64,000 bases of DNA from Druceiella hillmani (taxonomy: Eukaryota > Arthropoda > Insecta > Lepidoptera > Hepialidae): NCBI GenBank assembly GCA_039881145.1, contig JAYKKI010000023.1:9978001-10042000 (forward strand). The letters are read 5' to 3'. A program made the translations under genes and the position numbers. Shown piece by piece: positions 688 through 51,900 of this stretch. Every line of letters begins with the position of its first letter. Within the stretch, counting starts at the first letter, position 1. The notes under the pieces were generated by a model. The model searched no databases, was not told where the DNA came from, and worked only from the letters and a program-made list of their open reading frames with translations.

Positions 688-23767
<23,080 letters not shown>

Positions 23768-30317: not shown

Positions 30318-32417
30318 TTATTTCTTTGTAGCAAACTCAACTAGAACGTTTTCATCTTCCTGCGGTATATGATTTAATGGTTTTTTTACGTAATTTTCTG
30401 TAATAATAATAAGATCATTTTCGATTTCTTCATCAAACCAATCGTCATCCTCATCAGATTCTTCAGAATGACTTTGAAGAACTTCTTTATTATTTTCTTC
30501 TTCTTTTCGTTTCCTAGACAAATTTTTATACATTTTGATTTCCAATTTTTCCGGGGTATCAGTTGCGATTAAACTTCTTCGTAATTTTCTTGGTTTTCGA
30601 TTGGATTTTCTAGGTCCTGCCTTAATTGGTTCTCTGAATTGAAATGGAGATATAAATGTGGTTGATTTTTCATTAACAACGGAGGAAGCCGATACTGCAG
30701 ATACTAGAGGATTTCTATTGGTATTCAACTCCCTCAATGGTAGCAATACTATGTCAATTGAAGTGTTCAACTCTAAAGTTAGAGATATTGAACCAAAATT
30801 TTCAACTTGAGCCGCAAATGAAGGATGGTGTAGTCTCAGAAATTGACTATAGTTGTGTATTGAAAATGTCATTTGAGTCTTGTAGGATTGATGGGGAATC
30901 GTGTCTGTAATATGTAACAAGGTTTTCTGAACATAGTCGCATACCAACTGAAGCTTCTTCTGCTAAGTTTGGAACAGATTGAATTTCTTCTTCGAATATG
31001 ATTGTAATATCAGAGTCATTTGAACATCGGAAGTTAACTAATCTGTTAGTAGTCACAGATTGAGTTGTATCTCTTGTAGAGGGATCTGGTATATTTAAAT
31101 CGATACAGTCTTGGGCAAGTGCGACTAGAATCACTGTAGATCTTTCTTCACGTGTTATACAATCAGGACATGATCGGTCAATAACTGATGATGGCAAGAA
31201 ATCATCATCGTCGAATATATTTCTATCGAATGGGAAGATACTACATGCTTTAAATGCCTTTGCCATATTAACTGGAGTCATGACCTTGTAAAAAGCAGTG
31301 CCAACAAGTTCACCAACGTCATAAATTGTGACTGGTTTTCCAGGATTTCTCACCATCCAAGAATCTATTACAGTATAATAGAATGTCTTGAAAGCCCATA
31401 TTTTCCTATGTCTAGTGGCTGTAATTTGCCAGAAGTGTGTGAATGAAGAGTAAGTACATGAACACCTGCTGCTTCTACCTTATCCAAGGTTTCTAAGGAC
31501 AAATGAGGATCATGATTATCCATGATTAGTAAACTTAGATTTTCTAGTGTTGTATTAGTATGCTTGATCAAATGTTTCATTACTTCTGGAAAAATTTGAC
31601 TATTCATCCACCCTGTCGGGGATGCAAGTCCTAGAGTGCCAGGTGGTGGTGTGTTATTTATCATAAAATCATTGAAATTTTTTTTTCTCGGAAATACCAT
31701 CACTGGTGGTAATGCTACTGCACCCGCACTAATAATACAGCAGATAGTGACTAATGTTCCTCTTTCACCACACGTTACTTTGCTTATATTATTTATATAT
31801 TACGATCTTTTGGTGCGATAACTTTTTGCGGTTTTTGAATCATTGTTGTGTTTCATCAAGATTGTATATTCTTGTTCCTTCAGCAAATACGGAGTTTCTT
31901 TTCATACAATTTTCCAAGTTATCATAAAATCTATCTACATATGTACGATTGAATGCCGTTGCTCTCGTAAGACTGCATGCCTCAGGTTTTCTTAAAGTAA
32001 GTTCTGGATTTCTCTTCCTAAAACTCAATAGCCAATCTTTGCCTGCCATTTGCTTTTCTTTCCATGAAGCTGGCATTTTCAATTCATAGATAAGTGCCAT
32101 TTTGATATGCTATTCTTCTACATTCCTTTGAATTTAATCCATAAAATAATAACGCACAGTATTTTATAATACTCTTTCAAAGCTTTTTCTTCTTCTGCTG
32201 TAAACATTTTATTAATGCTGTAGTTTGGCGTCAGATGAGCTTCACTGACATTTAAATCTTTAGTTTTAAGATGATTGCGCCTCAGAATGGTGAATGGAAT
32301 GTTCAAAACGTCGGACACTTTTCTCACACTTATTCCGTTTTTAATATTTTTTAAGGCTTATCTCATATCTTCAGCTGTATGATGCCCGATTTTTCGGGGC
32401 TTTGCCAGACGAGACAT
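30318..32417 (-). pseudogene. Pogo/Tigger-like transposase remnant
   Basis: Read from 32417 leftward: MSRLAKPRKIGHHTAEDMR, an in-frame stop, then a pipsqueak-type HTH (SVRKVSDVLNIPFTILRR). Next comes a CENP-B-like HTH (KDWLLSFRKRNPELTLRKPE, near 32000) leading to NLDETQQ (first DDE Asp). After a shift come a DDE_1 core (LGLASPTGWMNSQIFPEVM, LLIMDNHDPHLS with the second Asp) and LQPLDIG, then a low-homology acidic C-terminal tail (209 codons from 30947). Several stops and frameshifts make it non-functional. The family (Tc5/pogo superfamily, jerky-like) is clear; the subfamily is not. Confidence 0.85.
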
Positions 32418-36900: not shown

Positions 36901-39900
36901 CTTAAGTAGAGTTCTTGAAAGTTGTTGCAACTTGACTTGCAGGATATGGCAGGTAATAAATAAAAGTAGTGTTAAAATCTCGTTGTTAATATTATTTTGT
37001 GCTTACGTCAAAGTTATGAGGAAGTTCTTTAGCGTTTACGTTTTACTTTACTAATATACCAATGAAAGTGAAGAGTGTTAATTTATAGAATACAGTATGC
37101 CTTTTAGGGTCTGATTATGACCACAAGACATTAATATTTATTTAATCATTTGAATATACGAAGATTTTGTTTGATGATAGATAGTATATACTAAACACAT
37201 TTGCACATGAATACATCAGTTTACCCAGTTTAGTAAACTGATGTATTCATGTGCAAGTGTGTTTTGCATGTGTTTTGTTTATAGGGGCCCCAGGCCTTTA
37301 CTGCAAATATTGTGTTTTGTTTGCAGTAGCACCTGGAGGTGGAATACAATCAAAAACGACTCATCAAAGAAGAGGCTTTTAATGGCCTTTGGTGATTTGC
37401 TTGATGAAAATGGTATACTACTAATACACCAGCGAAACCAATACCATGAAATAGCTGTCGAAGCAGGAAAAAACTTTTTATGAACTTTTCATATACTTGA
37501 AATTAATATTATTAACCAAATTAGTAATCAAAGAATGACACAAGTTAATGAAAACTGGAAACGCTTGGAAAATTATACTTTTTTGTGGTTATCAAATATA
37601 TCGCTACGTGGCCATCATGACGATGGCAAATTGTTGGATACAGAAGCAGGTAATGACAGCATGGTAGCTCATGAAGGAAATTTTAGAGCCCTTTTAAAAT
37701 TTCGTATAAAATCTGGTGACACACCAGCACCATTTAGATACTTCTAAGTCTAACGCTCCATATATCAGCAAAACTATGCAAATGAGTTGATTGATGTTTG
37801 CAAAGAAATCATTCAGGAAAGTATTTTACAGTATGTGAAGGAAGCTAAATTCTTTTCAATTTTATTCGATGAAATAATGGATATATCATATATCTTGCAG
37901 CTGAGCCTATTATTTAGATATCTTCACAACGGTGTTACAATGGAAGATTTTAAGACTTTCTGTGATATTTATGGTAGGCAACTATGCAAAATGAGTTGAT
38001 TGATGTTTGCAAAGAAATCATTCAGGAAAGTATTTTACAGTATGTGAAGGAAGCTAAATTCTTTTCAATTTTATTCGATGAAATAATGGATATATCATAT
38101 ATCTTGCAGCTGAGCCTATTATTTAGATATCTTCACAACGGTGTTACAATGGAAGATTTTAAGACTTTCTGTGATATTTATGGTAGGCAACTGTGCAAAA
38201 TGAGTTCATTGATGTTTGGAAAGAAATCATTAAGGAAAGTATTTTACAGTATGTGAAGGAAGCTAAATTCTTTTCAATTTTATTCGATGATATAATGGAT
38301 ATGTCATATATCTTGCAGCTGAGCCTATTATTTAGATATCTTCACAACGGTATTACAATGGAAGATTTTAAGACTTTTTGTGATACTTATGATAGGCAAC
38401 TGTGCAAAATGAGTTGATTGATGTTTGCAAAGAAATCATTCAGGAAAGTATTTTACAGTATGTGAAGGAAGCTAAATTCTTTTCAATTTTATTCGATGAA
38501 ATAATGGATATATCATATATCTTGCAGCTGAACCTATTATTTAGATATCTTCACAACGGTGTTACAATGGAAGATTTTAAAACTTTCTGTGATATTTATG
38601 GTAGGCAACTGTGCAAAATGAGTTCATTGATGTTTGCAAAGAAATCATTAAGGAAAGTATTTTACAGTATGTGAAGGAAGCTAAATTCTTTTCAATTTTA
38701 TTCGATGAAATAATGGATATGTCATATATCTTGCAGCTGAGCCTATTATTTAGATATCTTCACAACGGTATTACAATGGAAGATTTTAAGACTTTTTGTG
38801 ATACTTATGATAGGCAACTGTGCAAAATGAGTTGATTGATGTTTGCAAAGAAATCATTCAGGAAAGTATTTTACAGTATGTGAAGGAAGCTAAATTCTTT
38901 TCAGTTTTATTCGATGAAATAATGGATATATAATATATCTTGCCGCTGAGCCTATTATTTAGATATCTTCACAACGGTATTATAACGGAAGATTTTAAGA
39001 TTTTCTATGATACTTATGATAGGCTTAGATGTGTTGAAGTGGATAACAATACAGGCGGTATAGAGCGTCAGTCAGATAGGTGTAGCACTGGTGAAAATCG
39101 TTAAAAATCTCCGTCTCAAATTTAACATCAGTATTGGGACCTACAGCTTTTTGGTTATGGCTTCAGATATAAATGATGTAATACAAAAGTTGTCAAAAAA
39201 AGCTGTACATGCCAAATGTTGGCCATGCAGCAATCTCGTTCTTAATAACAGGTTAGCTATGTCATCCAAATAATTTCTTGCCGTAATACCTCAGCCACGA
39301 TAGTTGTAGCATTTTCCAATGCATCCGCTAAGAGGCGTCAAACTTTTGAAATAGAACTTGGGAGTTACAATGCAAGGTATCTGTGAGGCGTGTTGGGTTG
39401 AGAGGCATGATGGGCATCTACAATTTTAATGAGATAACTTGTTGAAAATTTGTAGCTTTCAGATAGCCTATGTTCTGCTAGAATAGAGGCAGTAACTCCT
39501 TTAACAGCTTTGGGTGCGTGAGACCAATCACGACCCATAGCAGGATAATTACCTCACAAATTCTGTGAGTCAGTGTGCTATCATCATTAGCAATGAAACT
39601 TTGTTTACACATGTCATGTCATGTGAAAAAACATGTGAAAGAGTTTGAAAACCACATTCAAAACATTGGTTGCATATATTCATATTGTAGATTTTCTCAT
39701 TATTGTAGATCAGTGAATTTAAAACGGACAGTAAAACAAGCAGCCCTTGGTATAATCTTACTCATAGCAATTCGGCAGGCAACCTGTTAAGATATCAACT
39801 TAGAGAAGTTTATGAAATAAGTGAAGGAATTTTTAAATTACTATAAAGAATTTAGCTGCGTCGTTGGCTAAAAATTATTAAAAAAATTAGGCTTCGATGT

Positions 39901-42900
39901 TGCTCAACATCACACTCATTTAAACAAACTGACCATATTTTTAAAGCTATATCTCTGATTAAGATTTTAATGATGTATAGATCGATGCTAAAGAAATTGC
40001 AACCTATTAATAATCAATATATATTATAAAAGTAAGTGTACAATGTGCATGTCGCTAAAACTCAGAAACAAATCCCGGTACAATCAAGGAAGTTATATGG
40101 TGTGGTAACCCCCTATCTTCCATCCATGAACAAGGTTCCCATTTTTACCTGAAGGGAGTGCTTAAGGTCTGAAAGTTTGCCCTCTAGAAATTTCTAGAAC
40201 ATTCGAGAGTGTTTGAGAGCATTCCACAACATCCCAGAACGCCCCGAACATTCTGGATTGTTGTGGAATGTTTGGGAATAGTCTGGAATGTTTAGGAACA
40301 TCCCAGATCATTGTGGAACATTTCAGAACACTTTCAAGTGTTGTAGAATGTTCTGGAACATTGCGGGCCATTCGAAGCCTTTTTGTAGGGGTTTATAAAG
40401 CAAAATCCGTTGTGGGTTGGAAGTCAGTTTCTTATCAGTGAAGTACACTGAGTGAATAAAAACAAACAGTGAGTAATCAAAGTGATACAGTGACTGAATA
40501 TAAATTTAAAATAAAGTGCGAAAAGCGTTTAAAGTGTTCTTAGTGTATTTCTTAATAAAAAGTTGATTTGATTTGTATTTTATACAATGTCGAACGAGAA
40601 GAGCACCATGAGAAGCAGAGAAACCGAAGAATAATGAAATGAACAAATTGAAGAATCAAGAATAGCAACACAATCTTATAATAAAAGACTGCGAACGAAA
40701 GCCACCTATGAAAATATCACCCTACAAGAAGCACGGACTAGGACAAGTAAACAGTACAACCTAACAAATGAAGCATTCCACTATAACCCGACAAAAGAAT
40801 ATAATAAATACAAACACGTCGTAATCGGAACAATGGATAACATCTTCCAATTTTGCAATGCAAAAAATTCAGTAGAAAAACACTAGGAATCTGTTGCATA
40901 AATGGAAAAATTCGATTACCATCACTGGAAGAACCTTCACAGGAATTTCTACATTACATGACCGAGGAAACCCCAGAATCAAAACGCTTTCTTCAAAATA
41001 CAAAAGCGTACGATGCCAATGACTTCATTCGGTGTCTCTTCGATCAGCACTAAGAGAGATGAAATCGATTATGTTTTTTCCATCCAAGGACAAATCTATC
41101 ACAAAATGGGATCATTACTACCGCCACCCAAAGAAGACTATAAATTTCTGCAAGTATATTTCATTGGAAATGAAGAAATAGAAATTGATCAATGATGCAC
41201 AAACATCAGTGAATTGAGACCAGAAATAATCCAAGATGTACTGAGGATCTTACACAAATACAATCAACTTATTCACACATTCAAAACAGGATTAGACTGA
41301 ATGATTTCTGATAACTATAAAGTTATAATTCGAGCTAACTAGAGACCACCTGGAGAACACGACTGTCGATTTAATGCATAACAAATAGACGAAGTCGTCA
41401 TCGTAATTGTAGACAATGAAAACACAAGGTGTGATATAATTGTCCAACGAAGAACAGAAGGATTACAACGCATTGCACAGGTACACCGTTCATATGATGC
41501 CCTCCAATACCATTAATATTTCTGCACATAGAGGATGGATATCATTCTAATGTGAAACAAATCCAACCTGAAACAGGCAAAGAAACAAACAAAAAAGTCA
41601 CTTCCAAGGAGTTCTATACTTACCGCTTAATGATCAGACACAAAGAAACATACAATCACATTCTCAACACTTGCCTTTTATTCCAACAATTCTTTATAGA
41701 TATGTATGCAAAAATAGAAGCAGAACGGATGCTTTACATAAGACTGAATCAGAAGAAACTACGCATGGAAGAATACATCCACCTTTGATACGCGATCATA
41801 AATGACGAAAACATTGACGACATCGGAACAATGGTAATCTTACCCTCATCTTACATAGGAAGTCCAAGACACCAAGATACCATACACAAATGCACTCAAA
41901 ATGCCATGACCTACGTAAGAAAATATGGATGACCTGACCTCTTCATAACTCAAAGAACAACTAAGATATGGAAGCCCCCAATGATCGACATGAGATAATA
42001 GCACGAGTTTACCGACAAAAACAAATGAGATTTATTGAAGTCATCACAAAATACCACACCTTTGGGACTATTAGATGCTGGATGTACTCAATCGAATAAC
42101 AAAAACGAGGACTGCCTCACTCACACAATCTCATATGGCTACATGACAGAATTCATCCTGCGGATATGGACATAATCATCCAAGCTGAATTTTTCACGGA
42201 CCATGCAGGCCATTAAACCCTAATTCGTATGTATGAGTGTAATACCTAAAACCATACTTGGACAACACACAAAACAAAGATGATGGCTATCTCAAATACA
42301 GAAGACGATCATCCAAAAAAGGTGGCTTCACAGCAAAAATACTCTGAAAGATCTGGAAAGAGATAATCAATGGATAGTACCAAATAAACCACTCCATTCC
42401 AAAATGTTCCAAGCACACATAAACATAGAATACTGCAATTGTGATGTGTGTGGGTATAAATGTAAGTATGTGAACAACATGGCAGTATTTCAAATAGCCA
42501 AGGACAGTGAACAACAAAACAGAAACGACGAGATCCTTGTATATCAAATGGCAAGATTTTTTTTTTTTTTTTTTTTTTTTTAATATCTGATCGGCCGTAG
42601 GCCATAATCAGATGTGGTCTATTTGTCAGGATTTATTGGAGTTGCTCCAGCGAGTTCCACCAATCACTATTGTCTAGACTCTAAGTCTAGTATTTGCCAT
42701 CTTTTTAGGCGAGTTATGCTTGCAGGATTCAAGAGGTCTCTGGCTAGCTCATTCTTGTGTTCCTTTAGTCTATTTTTATATTTTTTGCTGTGCTCGGTCA
42801 CTTCCTCCTTCACTGTTGACATCTTCAAATGTTCATGGATTTCCATATTTCTTACGAACCAGGGTGAGCTGGATATGGTTCTAAGCGCAATGTTTTGGAA

Positions 42901-45900
42901 TCTTTGAAGGATTTCGATATTTGAGTTACTCGAGGAGCCCCAGAGTTCAATGCCATATGTCCATATAGGCTTTATTATAGATTTATACACAAGTAATTTG
43001 TTGTGTAGTGATAACGGGGATTGTCATCCAATTAACCAGGACAGTCCCTGAAATTGAATGGTGGCCTCCTTCCTCTTCATTTTTATGTGGTTAGCCCAAG
43101 TGAGACGTCGGTCCAGGTGCAGACCAAGATATCTTACACTATTGTCTGTAGGTAGTGGTTTGTTGTCCATGCACACTGGTGGACAGTCTCCCTTACGCAG
43201 AGTAAACGTGATCTGTATCGATTTCGCAACACTTGGTTTGATTCTCCATCTCTGCAGCCATGAGTCTATCTTGTTCAGTTGCACCTGCAGTTTTTGAGAA
43301 GCCTTATCAGGGTCAATGTCACTCGCCAGGCAGGCAGTATCATCGGCATAGGTTGCAGTTATCACCTCCTCAGTACCGGGTAAGTCCGCTGTGAAAATGG
43401 AGTACAGGGTCAGTCCTAGCACTGATCCTTGCGGTACTGAGGCTTTCATTTCATAAAGATTTGAAAGTTCTTCCTCAAATTTGACTTGGAATCTCCGTTG
43501 GTCTAGGTAAGACCTGAGGATCATGTAAAATGAGTTAGGCAAGAAGGTTTTTAGTTTGAATAAGAGCCCCTTGTGCCAGACTCTATCGAAAGCCTGTTGG
43601 ATGTCTAAGAATACTGCAGAGCAATATTCTTTTTTCTCTAGACTTTGTCTGATTTTATGTACAACGCGATGCACCTGCTCCACTGTGGCATGCTTCTCCC
43701 GAAATCCAAATTGGTGATCTGGTATTATATTATTTTCTTCCAATACTGGTTTGAGTCTGCTGAGAAATATTTTCTCGAACACCTTCGATATTACAGGCAA
43801 AAGGCTTATAGGTCTAAACGAGCCTGGTTCAGTAGGTGGCTTTCCTGGTTTTCCAATCATACATATTACTGATACTTTCCACAGTTTTGGGTAATACTGA
43901 ATTCTGAATATTGCATTAAGTATCATTGTCAGTAGAATTATCATCTTTCTTGGCAGATGTTTAAGAATTTCACCAGTTATGAGGTCGAATCCAGGAGCCT
44001 TGTTGTTCTCCAAGTTACGTATGGTCCTAATTATTTCTTGTGGAGTCACCATTTTCAGAGGTAGTGACATCTGCTGGTCGCTATTGATGATTTCATCAAC
44101 TTCCTTCTCAAAGTCGTTCATAGTTGAGTGATTTGGGGTGAAGATTTCACTAAGGTGTTTTGCGAACGTTTCCGCTTTTTCACTTGTATTTCTAGCCCAC
44201 GTCCCATTAGATGTCTTAATAGGTGGAACAAACTTTGTTGGTGTTTTAAAGTTTTTGGTTATTTTCCATAAGGAGTAGTTATCCTTTTTTTGAGCCGACA
44301 ATGAGGAAAGTTGTTGATTGAATGTGTGGTTCTGGTTGTCATTTATGAGTTGTTTAAGTTCTCTAGCAAGTTTGTTATATTCTCTTCGGTCTTGGTCAGA
44401 TTGAGTCTGATGGAGACGTCGTCTTTGTTTCCGTTTATCTTGTAACTTTAGTCGTATTTCTAAAGGTACATTGTTCTTGTAAGGGAGCTTTGTTTCAGTC
44501 GGAGTGGCTCTCCATGCAGCCTCCTGAATAAGATTTGTAGCGTAGAACGTTGCTGAGTCAATATCTTCTGTGGTTTTTAGTTTTATTTTTAGGTTTGCAG
44601 TCTCTTTTAAGTATTCGGAGAATGCATTCCAGTCAGTTTTTCTATTACTTAGTCTTTCTCTTTGTTCTCTATGAATGGCTGTTACACTGAAGGTTGCTAT
44701 AACTGGAGAATGATCAGATATAGCATCAAGAGATGGTTCTATGTCAAAGTACACGTCCGCTAGACCTTTGACCACAAAGAAGTCCAGAAGATCCGGAGTT
44801 CGACATGGGTCTGAGGGCCAGTATGTTGGTTCACCCGAAGCCAGCGTTGTAAGTCTGTTGCTGTCAATACTTTTCTTGAGTTCGCGTCCTCTTGTGGTGA
44901 TTAGTCTGGAGCCCCAACACGTATGTTTGCTGTTCCAGTCCCCACCACTGATAAATCTGTGTCCTAAGGTGTTGAAGTAGCTGTCAAACATGTTTTTTTT
45001 AATATTTTGTCCTGGTGGACAATAGATAGCGCTAATGTTTATAGGGCCCATTTTTTCATGTACAGTGATTGTAGTAGCCTGTATCCAGTTTTCTTTGAGT
45101 TCACCATAAAAATAGTGATTTATATTCTTTTTGATAAAGATCGCAGTCCCACCATGTTATTTTTCGTCAGGGTGATTAGTGGTATAAATGTCATAATTGT
45201 CCAGCTTAACTGTTTTACGGTCATTTAAATGTGTTTCAGATATTAGAGCAATGTCAATTTTATTGGATGTCAGTAATATACCCAGTTCCTGTATATTAGG
45301 TGACAAACCATTTATGTTCCAGGTGGCAATAATGAGTGAAATCATTTTGGAAGCCTGTCGATGAGGCTCGTGATGAGATTCATCATTGTGCTAAATTGTG
45401 AAAGCAGTTGATCGATTCTTTCAGCCTGCTTAATTATAAGTGATTCTAATCTATTTATGTGGTCATTGGATTTCTCCTGTGGTTCTATTTGTGTGAAATT
45501 TGTTCTCTGTGATTTTTCTTCACTATTGTTATTGTATGCTTTAACTTTATCTTTCAGGTTGCCTGCAGTGGACCTTTCCTGTGTTTTAATAGCTTCACTG
45601 TAAGTTTTTTGATGTTCTACCTTGTTGGTAATTGTAGGGGTAGCTTCTAGGTGAGTAGTATTTGTTATGTTCTCCGTATTTCTTTGTTTTTCAGGTGCTG
45701 TCTTCGCAGGCGTCCGTGGGTTTTGGTTGCTGCTTCTTGGTTGAAGGTAAGTGTTCTGTCCTACTTGTTTTCTTGCGTATATTTCTTTATACACGCGGCA
45801 TCCTTTGTAGTTGGCCGGGTGATTCCCTGAACAGAGAGTACATGTCGCCGGAGTATTCTTATCCATCGTGCAACTGGTTGTTATGTGTGGTCCAGCACAC

Positions 45901-48900
45901 TTCACACACCTATAAGGTCGCATACAATTGTTCTTGGTGTGCCCATATTGTTGGCATCTCATACATTGTACAATGGTGTTTTTTCTTTTCGGGTCTTCTA
46001 TATGCACTTTTTGATGGTATATGTATTTAATCTCCTTGACTAGTTTGTTGTTTTCATGCTGGACTACGTTAACAAAGAATTTGTTTAAAGGTTCTTTCAT
46101 TCCAGGTTTACGAGCGGTCACTATCTCTCCTTGCACAGTGTTTCCAGTCAACTCTATTGCTGCTATTATAGCGTCCTTTGGAGTGCTGAAGTGTAGGTTT
46201 TTAATAACAATTCGCATAGTTTTTTGATCTTTGCAGGTGAAAGTATGTCCAATCAATCCTCTGCTTCTAATGTGTTCTATCAGGGCCTTGTATGTGATTA
46301 CAGAATTAGTAGATATGATTAGTTGATTCTTTGACGCGATCCGGTAGGAAAAGTCATTTTTGTTAGCTACTTCTTCCAGGAATTGAGTAAGTTTTCCAAC
46401 ATCTTCAATGCCATACAGCATGATCGGAGGTGGTTTGGTTTCTTTTACAACTTTTTTCTGTGTGGTCTTTTCTGCATCTTCTGTGTTTAACAAGCTGAAG
46501 CTATTTTGTGTTTTTATTGCAGGATTTTGGTCGAGTTCTATTTTATGAGTAGCCTTCTGTTTAATTATTGTTGGCTTCATTTGTGGTTTTTTCACATTAC
46601 TTCGTTTTGCAGCGTTCGTTGCTGTTATCTTTTCGTCAGGCGAGCGGATACGTTTCTGGTTCTGTTTCGGTATTCTTTGCCAGTCTGGCACAGCGGGTTT
46701 GTCAACAGAAGTGTTTTGTTCATGTCGTTGTACCTGCATATCGACATCTTTGGTTGTTTTCCTAGTGACCTCAGTTAAGAATGATGAGCGTGGTCTGTTA
46801 AACAGTCCTGGGTGAAATATCTGTTGAGTTAAGATTCTTGGTCTGTCCTGTGTTGTAGATTCCTCATGTGGCAAAACTGTGCCCCCCCCAGAATTCGTGG
46901 GGCAGCCCGAGCTATGCTCAGGGAGGGATTCTCCGGCATGGCCGGTACCCTCCTGGGGTAGATTCTCTTTAGGTTTGATGCCAAATGGGAAGATACATCA
47001 ACAGTAACGAAGCACCTAAGAACAAAACATTAACAGACTGTGCTACCAAAGGGAACCATTCGCAGAAACATTACTATAGGTCGGCGTCCCTACCTATTAT
47101 ACGTGAAACACAACAAGAAAAATCTTTCGATAAAAACAAGAACTTCCAGTAGAGGATCCTCCAGGAATCATGAAAACTAATGCACTAGGCCGAGTATACA
47201 CCATACATTCGAACAACGCCGAAAATGTTTCGTTCTCCGGATGTTGCTACACGAAATACGGGGACCAACAAGTTTCACAGATCTCAAGACTGTTAACGGT
47301 TATCTATGCCAGACGTGCAGAGAAGCATGCCAACGATTAGGAATACTGGAAAACGACAACCGCTGGGAATTAACACTACAAGAAGTCTTACTAACAGCTT
47401 CAGCTGAACAAATCAGAGACTTATTCACTATAATACTAACAACATGTAACCCATCGAATCCAAAACAACTTTGGGACTCCTTAAGAGAGTATGAGTGATG
47501 ACATACTGTCCCAAATCCGACAAGCTCAACCAGAACTGGCCATCGAATTCAACGACAACATCTTCAATGAAACACTCATTCGTCTAGAAGATAAATGTTT
47601 AACAAGAAAAAACCAGACCTTAGTACAACTTGGGACGCCAGCAACACGACAAGATGCTTTCAATGTGCTAAACTTCGAAATTACAAAGGAAAAAAGCTAC
47701 AAAATCAAAGAACTACTTATTGAATATACTCACAACAAACCACTGCTCGATGACAGTAAAAAAAATTTACAACGTTGTCATGGACCGAAAAAACTATTAT
47801 TTTGGAATTATTTACACGGGCGCGCCTGGCGGCACCGGGAAACCGTTTGTAATAAATCTATTGCTGGCAGAAATATGTGCTAAATAACACATCGCACTTG
47901 CACTGACATCATCCAGCATAACCGCCACATTTATGGTAGGAGGATGAACTGTCCATTCCGCCCTACAACTACCGTTGAATATAGCCGAAGAACAATTCCC
48001 AGTATGTAAAATCTCAAGAGCATCTGTACGGGGTGAACTTTTAAAATAAGTTAAAATTATCTTCTGGGATGAATGCACAAGTCATAGACAGAACATTACA
48101 AGACTTGCGAGGAAACTCTGGTGGGAGCTGTACTCATACTCTTAGGAGACTTTCGACAAACACTTCCAGTTATCCCCAAACCAACACATGATGAAATCAA
48201 TGCATGCTTAAAAAAGACAGATCTCTGGCCTCACACACAAATACTGCGACTAACAAAAAATATGAGAGTTGAAATTGAAATCGAAAGACGAAACAGCAGC
48301 ACATTTTGCTCAAAAACTTTTACAAATAGGCGAAGATATCCTACTGACCAGACGATTGGCCTCAATGAACTCAACAGTGATTTCTGCAACAGTGATTTCT
48401 GAACCAACACAACGACCAAATTTATCCAAACATTGTTCACAACTATACTAATCCGAAATGGCTATTTCAGAGGACAATTTTGGCAACTAAAAATAATATT
48501 GTCGACAATATCAACTTTAATATTCAAAAGAAAATTCCCGGTGAAGATAGAATGTACAAATCGATCGACACGTTGGTAAACATTGAAGAAACTGTCAACT
48601 TCCCTAGAGAATTTTTAAATTCTTTGCAGGTACCAGGAATGCCATTACACTGTCTTCGACTGAAAATTGGATCTTCGATCCTACTACTCATAAATCTAAA
48701 CTCACCAAAACTATGCAATGGAACAAGAATGATCGTCATACAGCTATTGAATAACATCATCGAAGCTGAACTTATGACTGCAATGGATAAAGGACACAGT
48801 ATTTATCCTCAGAATACCACTGATCTCTACTGAACTGCCATTCCAATTTAAAAGACTGCAATTTACAATCAAATTAGCCTATAGTTTTACAATTAACAAA

Positions 48901-51900
48901 GCATAAGGACAAACTTTAAAATATTGCGGCATAAACTTCAAAGAATCCTGCTTTTCTCACAGTCAACTATACATAGCTTGTTCTCGAGTAGGAAATTCGA
49001 AAAATTTGAACATATATACCCTGGATAACAAAATGAAAAATGTTGTTTATAAACAAGAATCATAAATAGTTAGAATATGTTTTCAATAAAAATATTTTAC
49101 TTCTTATATTTTGAAGTTTAATAATCCTATATCAAATCCCTGAGCGAAGCCGGGTACACCAACTAGTATAAAATAAAATAATATATTGACTATGAATGAG
49201 ACGATGAACCAATACATATATCAGACTTTAAAGTTCATTGTTTTATACCCTACATATAATTACATTAATGGATGAATGATTCCAAACACTTTTCTTATTT
49301 TAAACATTTTGAGGTTTTACTGAATAACAAGGAATTAAATTATATTACAATATAGATATATTAAGCGATAAAATTTGCAAGGAACGAGATGTAATTGTTT
49401 TCGAACTTGAATATTTACAAAATTTGATGAAAACCTATATGTCCCCAAAAGGAATTTTAAATTAAAAATCACTTTAAAACTTTATAGTTCTTTTTGTTAA
49501 TAAGAGCTGTCACAAAACATTATTTTTCAAAACATAATGTCAGAAAAAATTATTAAAGATTGAACCTGGCGCAAATCCGACAAAGTAATGATCATAATAG
49601 AATTGTACATATAAAAAGAATTAAATACTTTGCTGAAACTAACTTTGACTGAAAGAATATTTTTAAATTTTCCAAATATGGGTGAAAAGGCAGTCAAAGC
49701 CCTTCTTAATATTAAAATACATGAACTGTGAAATTTTACAAACATTGAGTTTATCTGAAGCAAACGTAAGACGCATAGAAAAAAAATTCAATATGGGTGA
49801 AGGTCTGAGCCCAAAAAGGGAAAATGGGGAATAAACCCAATTCTCATCTCCAGGTCAGAAAACTCTGTCAAGTAAATTTGCGTGGAAAACAGATTTTCTA
49901 CCACAAGAGTAATCAAATCTGAACTGGAAGAAGCTAATTTTATTATATCTGAGCGCACTGTTTGCAGAAAATCGAAGAGTAAATTCTTACAAGTCTCATC
50001 GAACTGTCAGGAAGCCTTAATTGACTGCTGCGATTAAAGCAAAACATCTGAGGTGGGCTAAAAAAGAAAGATGTCGAGTTTTGGAGATCGATAATTAAAT
50101 ATTTCACTTCTAATTAACAATTTATCACTGATTTTTTTATTCTTACAATTTAAATGCTTATTTAGTTTCTTTTACAGATTTCTTTCAGCGATGAAAACAC
50201 GTATGAAATTTTAGGGACTTGAAATTTTAGTCTATACAACTGTGTTGTACATACAACAAAAATTATCATGATTTAATCCATCATCAGTGGCAAGATACAG
50301 CGCCTTTACATAGTGAAAGGCATTATGAGGCAGAACCAGGCATCATGAGTGAACGAAGAAGTCCTAGAGAATTGGTTGGTTCCACAATTAAGAAAATGTT
50401 TCTGAAATGGAGAACCATTCATTTTTATGCAAAAGAGAGCTTATTGTCACACTACACATTGAATCAAAGCATATTTAGATGACCAAAATATCCCACTGTT
50501 GGGCTGACCAAGTAATACTTCCCATATGAACCCGACTGAAAGTGCATGGAAGTTGATGAAGAGGAAAGTGGCTAAAAAAATAACTATGACTAAAGAAAAA
50601 TCTTATTGAAAAGATCATCCACGTAAGGAGTTATAATCTATAAATGCAGGAGATTGTAAAATCATGCATTAATAGCATGTCGCGAAGGATTGAAACATTA
50701 ATAACTGCAAAAGTTGATTAAGCGAAATATCAATACAAAAATACATTTGGAGCATTAAAATGGTTCCTACACTGATAGTTAATGAATATTCATTCAAAAC
50801 TATGTTTTAGTTATAACAACACATACCTAATTACATGTAGCAGACATACAAATTTGATTTATTCTGGTAAAATATCCCAAACCCATATTTTTTACAGCTG
50901 TTAATTAAGATTTTGCATAAAAACTACAGTGCACCTAATAATTTGGCCAGGGGCTGTACACCCTTATCTAAATATCTGCACTATAAAAATTAGAGGCGAG
51001 ATTAGAGCTTGCAGAACTGCTCCGGTTCCTAAAGTTTTGATTCCCGGTGTTGGGCTCAGCTCGGTATCGGTACTCGTTATATTCATTCACAATGAAAAGC
51101 TTAAGACCAGTAAGATTTTTTCCAGATTTTTCGTGCGTATTCAATTATTTACGTAATAATACAATAAATAATAACTTCATTCTCTAATCAAAATAAAGGT
51201 TTATTATTGAAAATATATAGACAATCAGATTATTACTATTTTAATAACTTTTTCTTCACATAGTGTTTAGAACTTTAAATTTTAAACATACATTACAACC
51301 GACATCTTTTGGTCAAGTAATCACTATTCCAAGACAATTTAACAGGGTTCAATAGGTGAGGCTTTTTTTAATTAAGAAAATAACACAATATCACAATTTA
51401 GTTAAGTAATAAGTTTAAGTAGCATTATAATGGCATTAACAATTATTATCAGTCTTCAAAACGATTACAAATCACACCATAACATTAACAATATATTGAA
51501 TATATTTGGCGTTAATTTTGTAGAAATTCATTATACACAATTAAATGAAACTACGTGATGTAGTCTTATTTCTACTTGCTTCAAGTTCTTTACCACAACC
51601 TAGGTTTCGTTGTATTACAACATTTTCAGGTGGGCTATTAGCAAAGATGAAGAATCTTTGGTAATAGTCCACAAAGAAGTAGAATCTTTGCTAATAGCCT
51701 ACCTGAAGATGTAGTAATACAACGAAACCTAGGTTGTGGTAGAGAACTTAAAGAAAGTAGAAATAATACTAATCACATAGTTTCATTTAATTGTGATTAA
51801 CAATATAAAAAAAAACTAAACGAAACTATTTTTCAGAGTTTAAACGGTATAACCATCTTTTATTAGTTTTATCTCTTTTTTCGAGGTAGTATGAATGTAG

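Follow-up and report, generated by a model that had tools for sequence, protein, structure and literature searches.

A 194-base array of heat-shock elements (HSEs), at positions 40182–40375 of the window (the 64,000-base stretch of DNA analysed here, to which all window-wide counts refer), is probably the upstream activating region of a heat-shock-type promoter that belongs to the transposable element carrying it. As judged from its ends and protein domains, this carrier is a Helitron of the autonomous type, present as a dead copy spanning 40014–49166. The promoter reading is based on this single copy.

The array consists of 19 ten-base units, that is, 38 alternating GAA/TTC slots, which fall into two registers (40187+10k, 6 units, and 40246+10k, 13 units) with one 9-base step between them:

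40182..40241, plus strand: HSE block 1, 12 alternating subunits, 10 of them good, including the perfect GAA-TTC-GAA-TTC
40246..40375, plus strand: HSE block 2, 13 ten-base units in a register shifted by one base, GAA being exact in 9 of 13 and TTC in 3 of 13

It contains at least three contiguous alternating nGAAn/nTTCn subunits with the G and the C kept, the pattern by which an HSE array is recognized. The perfect four-unit HSE occupies 40187–40204 (GAA at 40187, TTC at 40192, GAA at 40197 and TTC at 40202), and of the 10 positions 40266, 40276 and so on to 40356, 8 carry GAA, the exceptions being 40306 (GAT) and 40336 (AAG); the initial annotation had placed the four-unit HSE and the eight GAA to the base. 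Across the 19 units, 90 of the 114 core-letter cells match in register (G 17, A 18, A 13, T 16, T 16 and C 10, each out of 19). Seven of the 19 GAA slots are imperfect (3/6 in block 1, 4/13 in block 2), as are 13 of the 19 TTC slots (3/6 and 10/13, respectively), and the C is lost in 8 of the 13 TTC slots of block 2. This C is a contact of heat shock factor (HSF). Since the TTC slots of block 2 are mostly imperfect and often lack it, much of that block is gapped and discontinuous: it reads as a gapped or step-type HSE, over which continuous HSF binding may be weak. The C is also demanded by the HSE rules of Tian et al. (2010), in the available part of that paper (PMC2871787). By contrast, the perfect four units of block 1 are likely to form the strong site, because the TTC and GAA slots elsewhere are often imperfect. 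The GAA–TTC spacer is CA in 10 of 19 units and TG in 6 of 19, i.e. both orientations of the palindrome are present, which favors a symmetric binding site over simple tandem duplication.

That this is a true HSE array, as first claimed, is borne out by shuffling, by the specificity of the spacing and by the uniqueness of the perfect four-unit HSE. Indeed, GAANNTTCNNGAANNTTC occurs exactly once in the 64,000 bases (at 40187–40204), compared with an average of 0.00 over 100 shuffles. When 40182–40382 was scored, every one of 400 dinucleotide shuffles fell below the original for runs of 4, 10, 20, 30 and 38 subunits (for example, 47/60 observed versus a shuffle maximum of 31). Six run lengths from 4 to 36 were tried over the 64 kb, and at each of them the array came out highest; when the window was cut into 1-kb tiles, the runner-up 20-subunit score was 32, versus 47/60 in the array. 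The 5-base spacing is specific, with 0.51 of the letters in one register against 0.29–0.37 at spacings of 3–4 and 6–11. Runs were also delimited by a rule modelled on the one described in the available part of Tian et al. 2010 (PMC2871787), made looser by allowing unlimited single-subunit gaps. The longest runs in the window by this looser rule are one of 17 subunits, 12 of them good (40246–40328), and one of 12 subunits, 10 of them good (40182–40239). The third longest (47152–47199; 10 subunits, 7 good, 1 perfect) lies within the coding part of the Helitron and is as long as the longest run that 20 mononucleotide shuffles of the whole window produced. Viral contigs with a match to a six-unit HSE pattern numbered 15, which may be due to chance.

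Helitrons begin with TC at their 5' end, terminate with CTRR at their 3' end and insert between A and T. The element carrying the array conforms to this rule at 40014 (A before TC) and at 49166 (CTAG before T), and its other parts follow in the order given here:

40014..40050, plus strand: Helitron 5' terminus, A followed by TCAATATATATTATAAAAG..., with the TC start
40587..40883, plus strand: start of the Helitron reading frame, with ATG at 40587 and stops at 40632–40637, open thereafter to 40883
41498..42550, plus strand: Rep region in broken frames, with Helitron_like_N pieces, RGLPHSH and YKCKY
42557..46981, minus strand: nested Jockey-like non-LTR retroelement, with a PRE_C2HC gag, endonuclease, RT and a poly-A tail
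47181..49062, plus strand: helicase region in broken frames, with PIF1, Pif1_2B and a C-terminal piece
49140..49166, plus strand: Helitron 3' terminus, CTGAGCGAAGCCGGGTACACCAACTAG followed by T

As in autonomous animal Helitrons, a Rep region with HUH and tyrosine motifs (both recognized by eye only) precedes a PIF1-type helicase. Helitron_like_N (PF14214) is matched at 41498–41785 (E 4.5e-07, over the curated cut-off) and at 41965–42096 (E 3.6e-05, under it); the HUH motif RGLPHSH lies at 42106–42126 and the tyrosine motif YKCKY within 42284–42550. In the helicase region, Pfam gave PIF1 at 48088–48399 (E 5.2e-13) and Pif1_2B at 48396–48830 (E 1.7e-16), a C-terminal piece being visible by eye at 48907–49062. 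The only PDB match of the piece 48396–48830 is Helraiser (7lcc; E 5.2e-21). Two other Helitron pieces match Helraiser weakly but colinearly, one of them the tyrosine region (Helraiser 692–732, E 0.15) and the other with E 0.051. The piece 47485–47880 has no PDB match. The initial assignment to the Helitrons is thus confirmed by the ends, by the Helitron_like_N and PIF1 domains and by the helicase piece matching Helraiser.

The reading frames are not intact: stops, frameshifts and the nested retroelement interrupt them, and the copy is now unable to make an intact transposase. The retroelement, whose gag and EN/RT frames are long and open, interrupts the Rep region and is flanked by a 12-base target duplication (42545–42556 and 46982–46993, 11 of 12 bases alike), which was recognized by eye, as were the ends of the retroelement and its tail; it is younger than the Helitron. 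PRE_C2HC gag and Jockey-like endonuclease/RT are typical of insects and, with the TCAGTT initiator described below, make an arthropod host probable; in a Caenorhabditis host, such a promoter would be nothing new.

Comparison of the window with itself revealed no second Helitron copy within the 64 kb at E 1e-3, the sole self-match being between the array and its reverse complement (40198–40292). The first part of the element (40014–40700) has no match among phages, the pattern of its 3' end has 0 occurrences in viral_contigs, and the helicase piece 48396–48830 gave 5 pattern stretches in viral_contigs and 30 in genome_contigs, none of which was confirmed in either set. No Rfam family was found at gathering score in 39500–49500. 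The window also contains other repeats and coding remnants. A 209-base unit is repeated in tandem at 37772–39024 (about 6 copies, 94–97% alike) and by eye resembles part of a hAT-type transposase frame. A DDE_1 transposase remnant, pogo/Tigger-like by eye, lies on the minus strand at 31368–31799, with further frames nearby (30318–31479) that have no Pfam match, and a minus-strand RING plus B-box (TRIM-like) frame at 12575–13387 is probably an exon of a host gene.

The array lies directly upstream of core-promoter motifs and of the Rep/helicase reading frame, as the initial annotation had proposed, and ends 18 bases before the TATA box:

40394..40399, plus strand: TATA box TATAAA, at -32 to -27 relative to A40426
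40424..40429, plus strand: initiator-like TCAGTT, with the predicted start at A40426
40426..40586, plus strand: 5' leader of 161 nt, 74% A+T, with no ATG and several AGTGA/AAAGTG words

The positions first assigned to the TATA box and the initiator, at promoter spacing, are exact. Taken alone the pair is weak, because the pattern TATAAA-N20-28-TCAKT recurs in this A+T-rich window (8 times on the plus strand, the pair at 40394 included, and 2 on the minus strand). The HSEs stand where Caenorhabditis Helitrons have them, in the Rep-helicase promoter, which is here predicted from sequence only. The leader contains 0 ATG, as did only 12 of 2000 of its dinucleotide shuffles (mean 3.37), and the next ATG, at 40587, opens the frame leading into the Helitron pieces. 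Note that this start codon rests on an eroded frame, since two adjacent in-frame stops (40632–40637) come close after it and the piece that follows (40638–40883) has no significant Pfam or PDB match. The predicted folding of the leader RNA (40426–40589) is ordinary (z -0.30), and the excess of AGTGA/AAAGTG words in the leader does not amount to a test, because the words were chosen after the leader had been inspected.

The order of these parts, i.e. HSE array, TATA box, initiator and A-rich, ATG-free leader, is that of an hsp gene. Helitrons are known to capture host sequence, and this one could have taken up a host hsp promoter whole, together with its leader, which would now drive or front its own gene. 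The initial annotation called the leader hsp70-like and had the family either capture or evolve its promoter. We compared the leader with a single Drosophila Hsp70 leader, which makes the comparison a lead only. The two share 21 6-mers, a number equalled by only 10 of 392 other 161-base stretches of the window (mean 11.0). However, as many were shared by dinucleotide shuffles of the leader itself in 138 of 1000 cases for 6-mers (mean 15.7), 310 of 1000 for 7-mers and 286 of 1000 for 8-mers; since the leader's own shuffles match it, the excess over the window stretches is explained by composition. The hsp70-like leader was therefore rejected: against this one sequence, it shows nothing beyond base composition. 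In addition, the longest HSE in the Drosophila hsp genes surveyed in the available part of PMC2871787 has 11 subunits, versus runs of 12 and 17 here, although these lengths are only loosely comparable because our rule is looser than theirs. Capture of a whole hsp promoter is thus unlikely. As regards the heat-promoter reading put forward in the initial annotation, the Helitron, the HSE array and its upstream placement stand, whereas the hsp capture is not supported, the resemblance of the leader having failed against shuffles.

The array could also be a 10-base minisatellite within the Helitron that resembles HSEs by chance and has no promoter role. Base identity at lags of 10, 20 and 30 is indeed 0.58, 0.51 and 0.46, and core positions 3 and 8 (0.64 and 0.53 bits) are no more informative than the spacers; moreover, the available part of PMC11431837 describes a satellite that arose from tandem repeats within a Helitron. 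Yet core positions 1, 2, 6 and 7 carry 1.23–1.70 bits, versus 0.25–0.79 for the four spacer positions, and the unit is an HSE dimer in both orientations, with a perfect four-unit HSE among the copies. The array also lies just upstream of a TATA box, an initiator and a reading frame, and it was not reported by Tandem Repeats Finder at the default score. Taken together, these observations make a chance minisatellite improbable. It is very improbable indeed that the phased 10-base repeats are iterons binding the Helitron's own Rep rather than HSF: helically phased repeats do lie less than 400 bases from the 5' end of this rolling-circle element, but they start 168 bases inside it, adjoin a TATA box and match the HSF consensus, and we know of no iteron array of such a kind in Helitrons.

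If the array served to activate the promoter of the Helitron itself, the element may at one time have been turned on by heat stress. In an ancestor of this copy that was still alive, HSF would have formed trimers under heat or another proteotoxic stress, and the trimers would have bound cooperatively along 40182–40375, the perfect four-unit HSE (40187–40204) serving as a high-affinity entry point. Bound HSF would then have activated Pol II at the core promoter (TATAAA at 40394, initiator at 40426), giving a Rep/helicase mRNA with a 161-base ATG-free leader, and the supply of transposase would thereby have been tied to stress. HSF binding, a start at 40426 and heat induction are predicted on this basis. 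The copy is a fossil as regards protein, but its HSEs may have remained able to bind HSF and to affect neighboring DNA.

An HSF-driven Helitron promoter is already known in Caenorhabditis; it is the lineage that is probably new here. A 2019 survey (Garrigues et al., PMC6927752) covered the UCSC genomes in which Helitrons are annotated and, in its available text, reported HSE enrichment in Helitrons for Caenorhabditis alone. A case in an arthropod would widen this link, and none was found in the literature among the matches listed (titles and the beginnings of abstracts, a set largely outside subscription papers). In section 9 of the survey, as far as available, the cross-species HSE motif is printed as NGAANNTCCNNGGAN, whereas the standard motif is nGAAnnTTCnnGAAn (PMC6927752). 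In the 64-kb window, NGAANNTCCNNGGAN has 0 matches (0.14 expected by chance), hence none in the array, while GAANNTTCNNGAA has 4 exact matches in the window, 3 of which fall in the array. A survey applying the printed motif literally would therefore overlook the array. The printed form may be a misprint; if it was used as such, the survey is uninformative outside Caenorhabditis for arrays like 40182–40375.

We raise, tentatively and as a possibility that we hold to be somewhat doubtful, that stress-coupled Helitrons exist beyond worms: an arthropod lineage would have independently acquired an HSF-driven transposase promoter, or inherited it from an old animal ancestor, and would have scattered dense clusters of HSEs across the genome of its host, to which the survey would be blind if the motif was applied as printed. 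A clear case in another lineage, with an array, a core promoter and a Rep frame, would mean that control by HSF is a strategy to which Helitrons have resorted repeatedly, and would predict heat-inducible transposition and rewired neighboring genes in that lineage.

The link to Caenorhabditis Helitrons drawn in the initial annotation is correct, and stronger than claimed. In the available parts of PMC6927752 and PMC6765114, HSF-1 binds the HSEs of C. elegans Helitron1_CE, and the Rep-helicase mRNA itself is heat-induced in an HSF-1-dependent manner; the promoter region of F33H12.6 contains 14 HSEs, and 85 lie upstream in a relative from C. briggsae. Helitron1_CE and Helitron7_CB, as described there, resemble the present element in being Helitrons whose Rep-helicase gene is preceded by a cluster of HSEs. 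They differ from it in that the host is here probably an arthropod and the HSEs form a single 194-base array near a TATA box and an initiator. HSF-1 binding and heat induction have been shown for Helitron1_CE, whereas for the present element both are predictions from sequence. Drosophila hsp promoters, in the available part of PMC2871787, have arrays of nGAAn/nTTCn, usually no more than 400 bases from the start, and gapped HSEs are common and conserved among them (Tian et al.). The Helitron array shares both features, its runs of 12 and 17 subunits, delimited by a looser rule, standing against 2 to 11 subunits in the hsp genes. The present element resembles Helraiser (PDB 7lcc) in the helicase piece 48396–48830; to our knowledge, Helraiser has no HSE-type promoter. 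ONSEN of Arabidopsis and DIRS-1 of Dictyostelium are heat-activated retrotransposons whose transcription is under HSF. Like the Helitron as read here, they are mobile elements placed under the control of this factor, but they are retroelements with the HSE in an LTR or terminal repeat and not rolling-circle elements.
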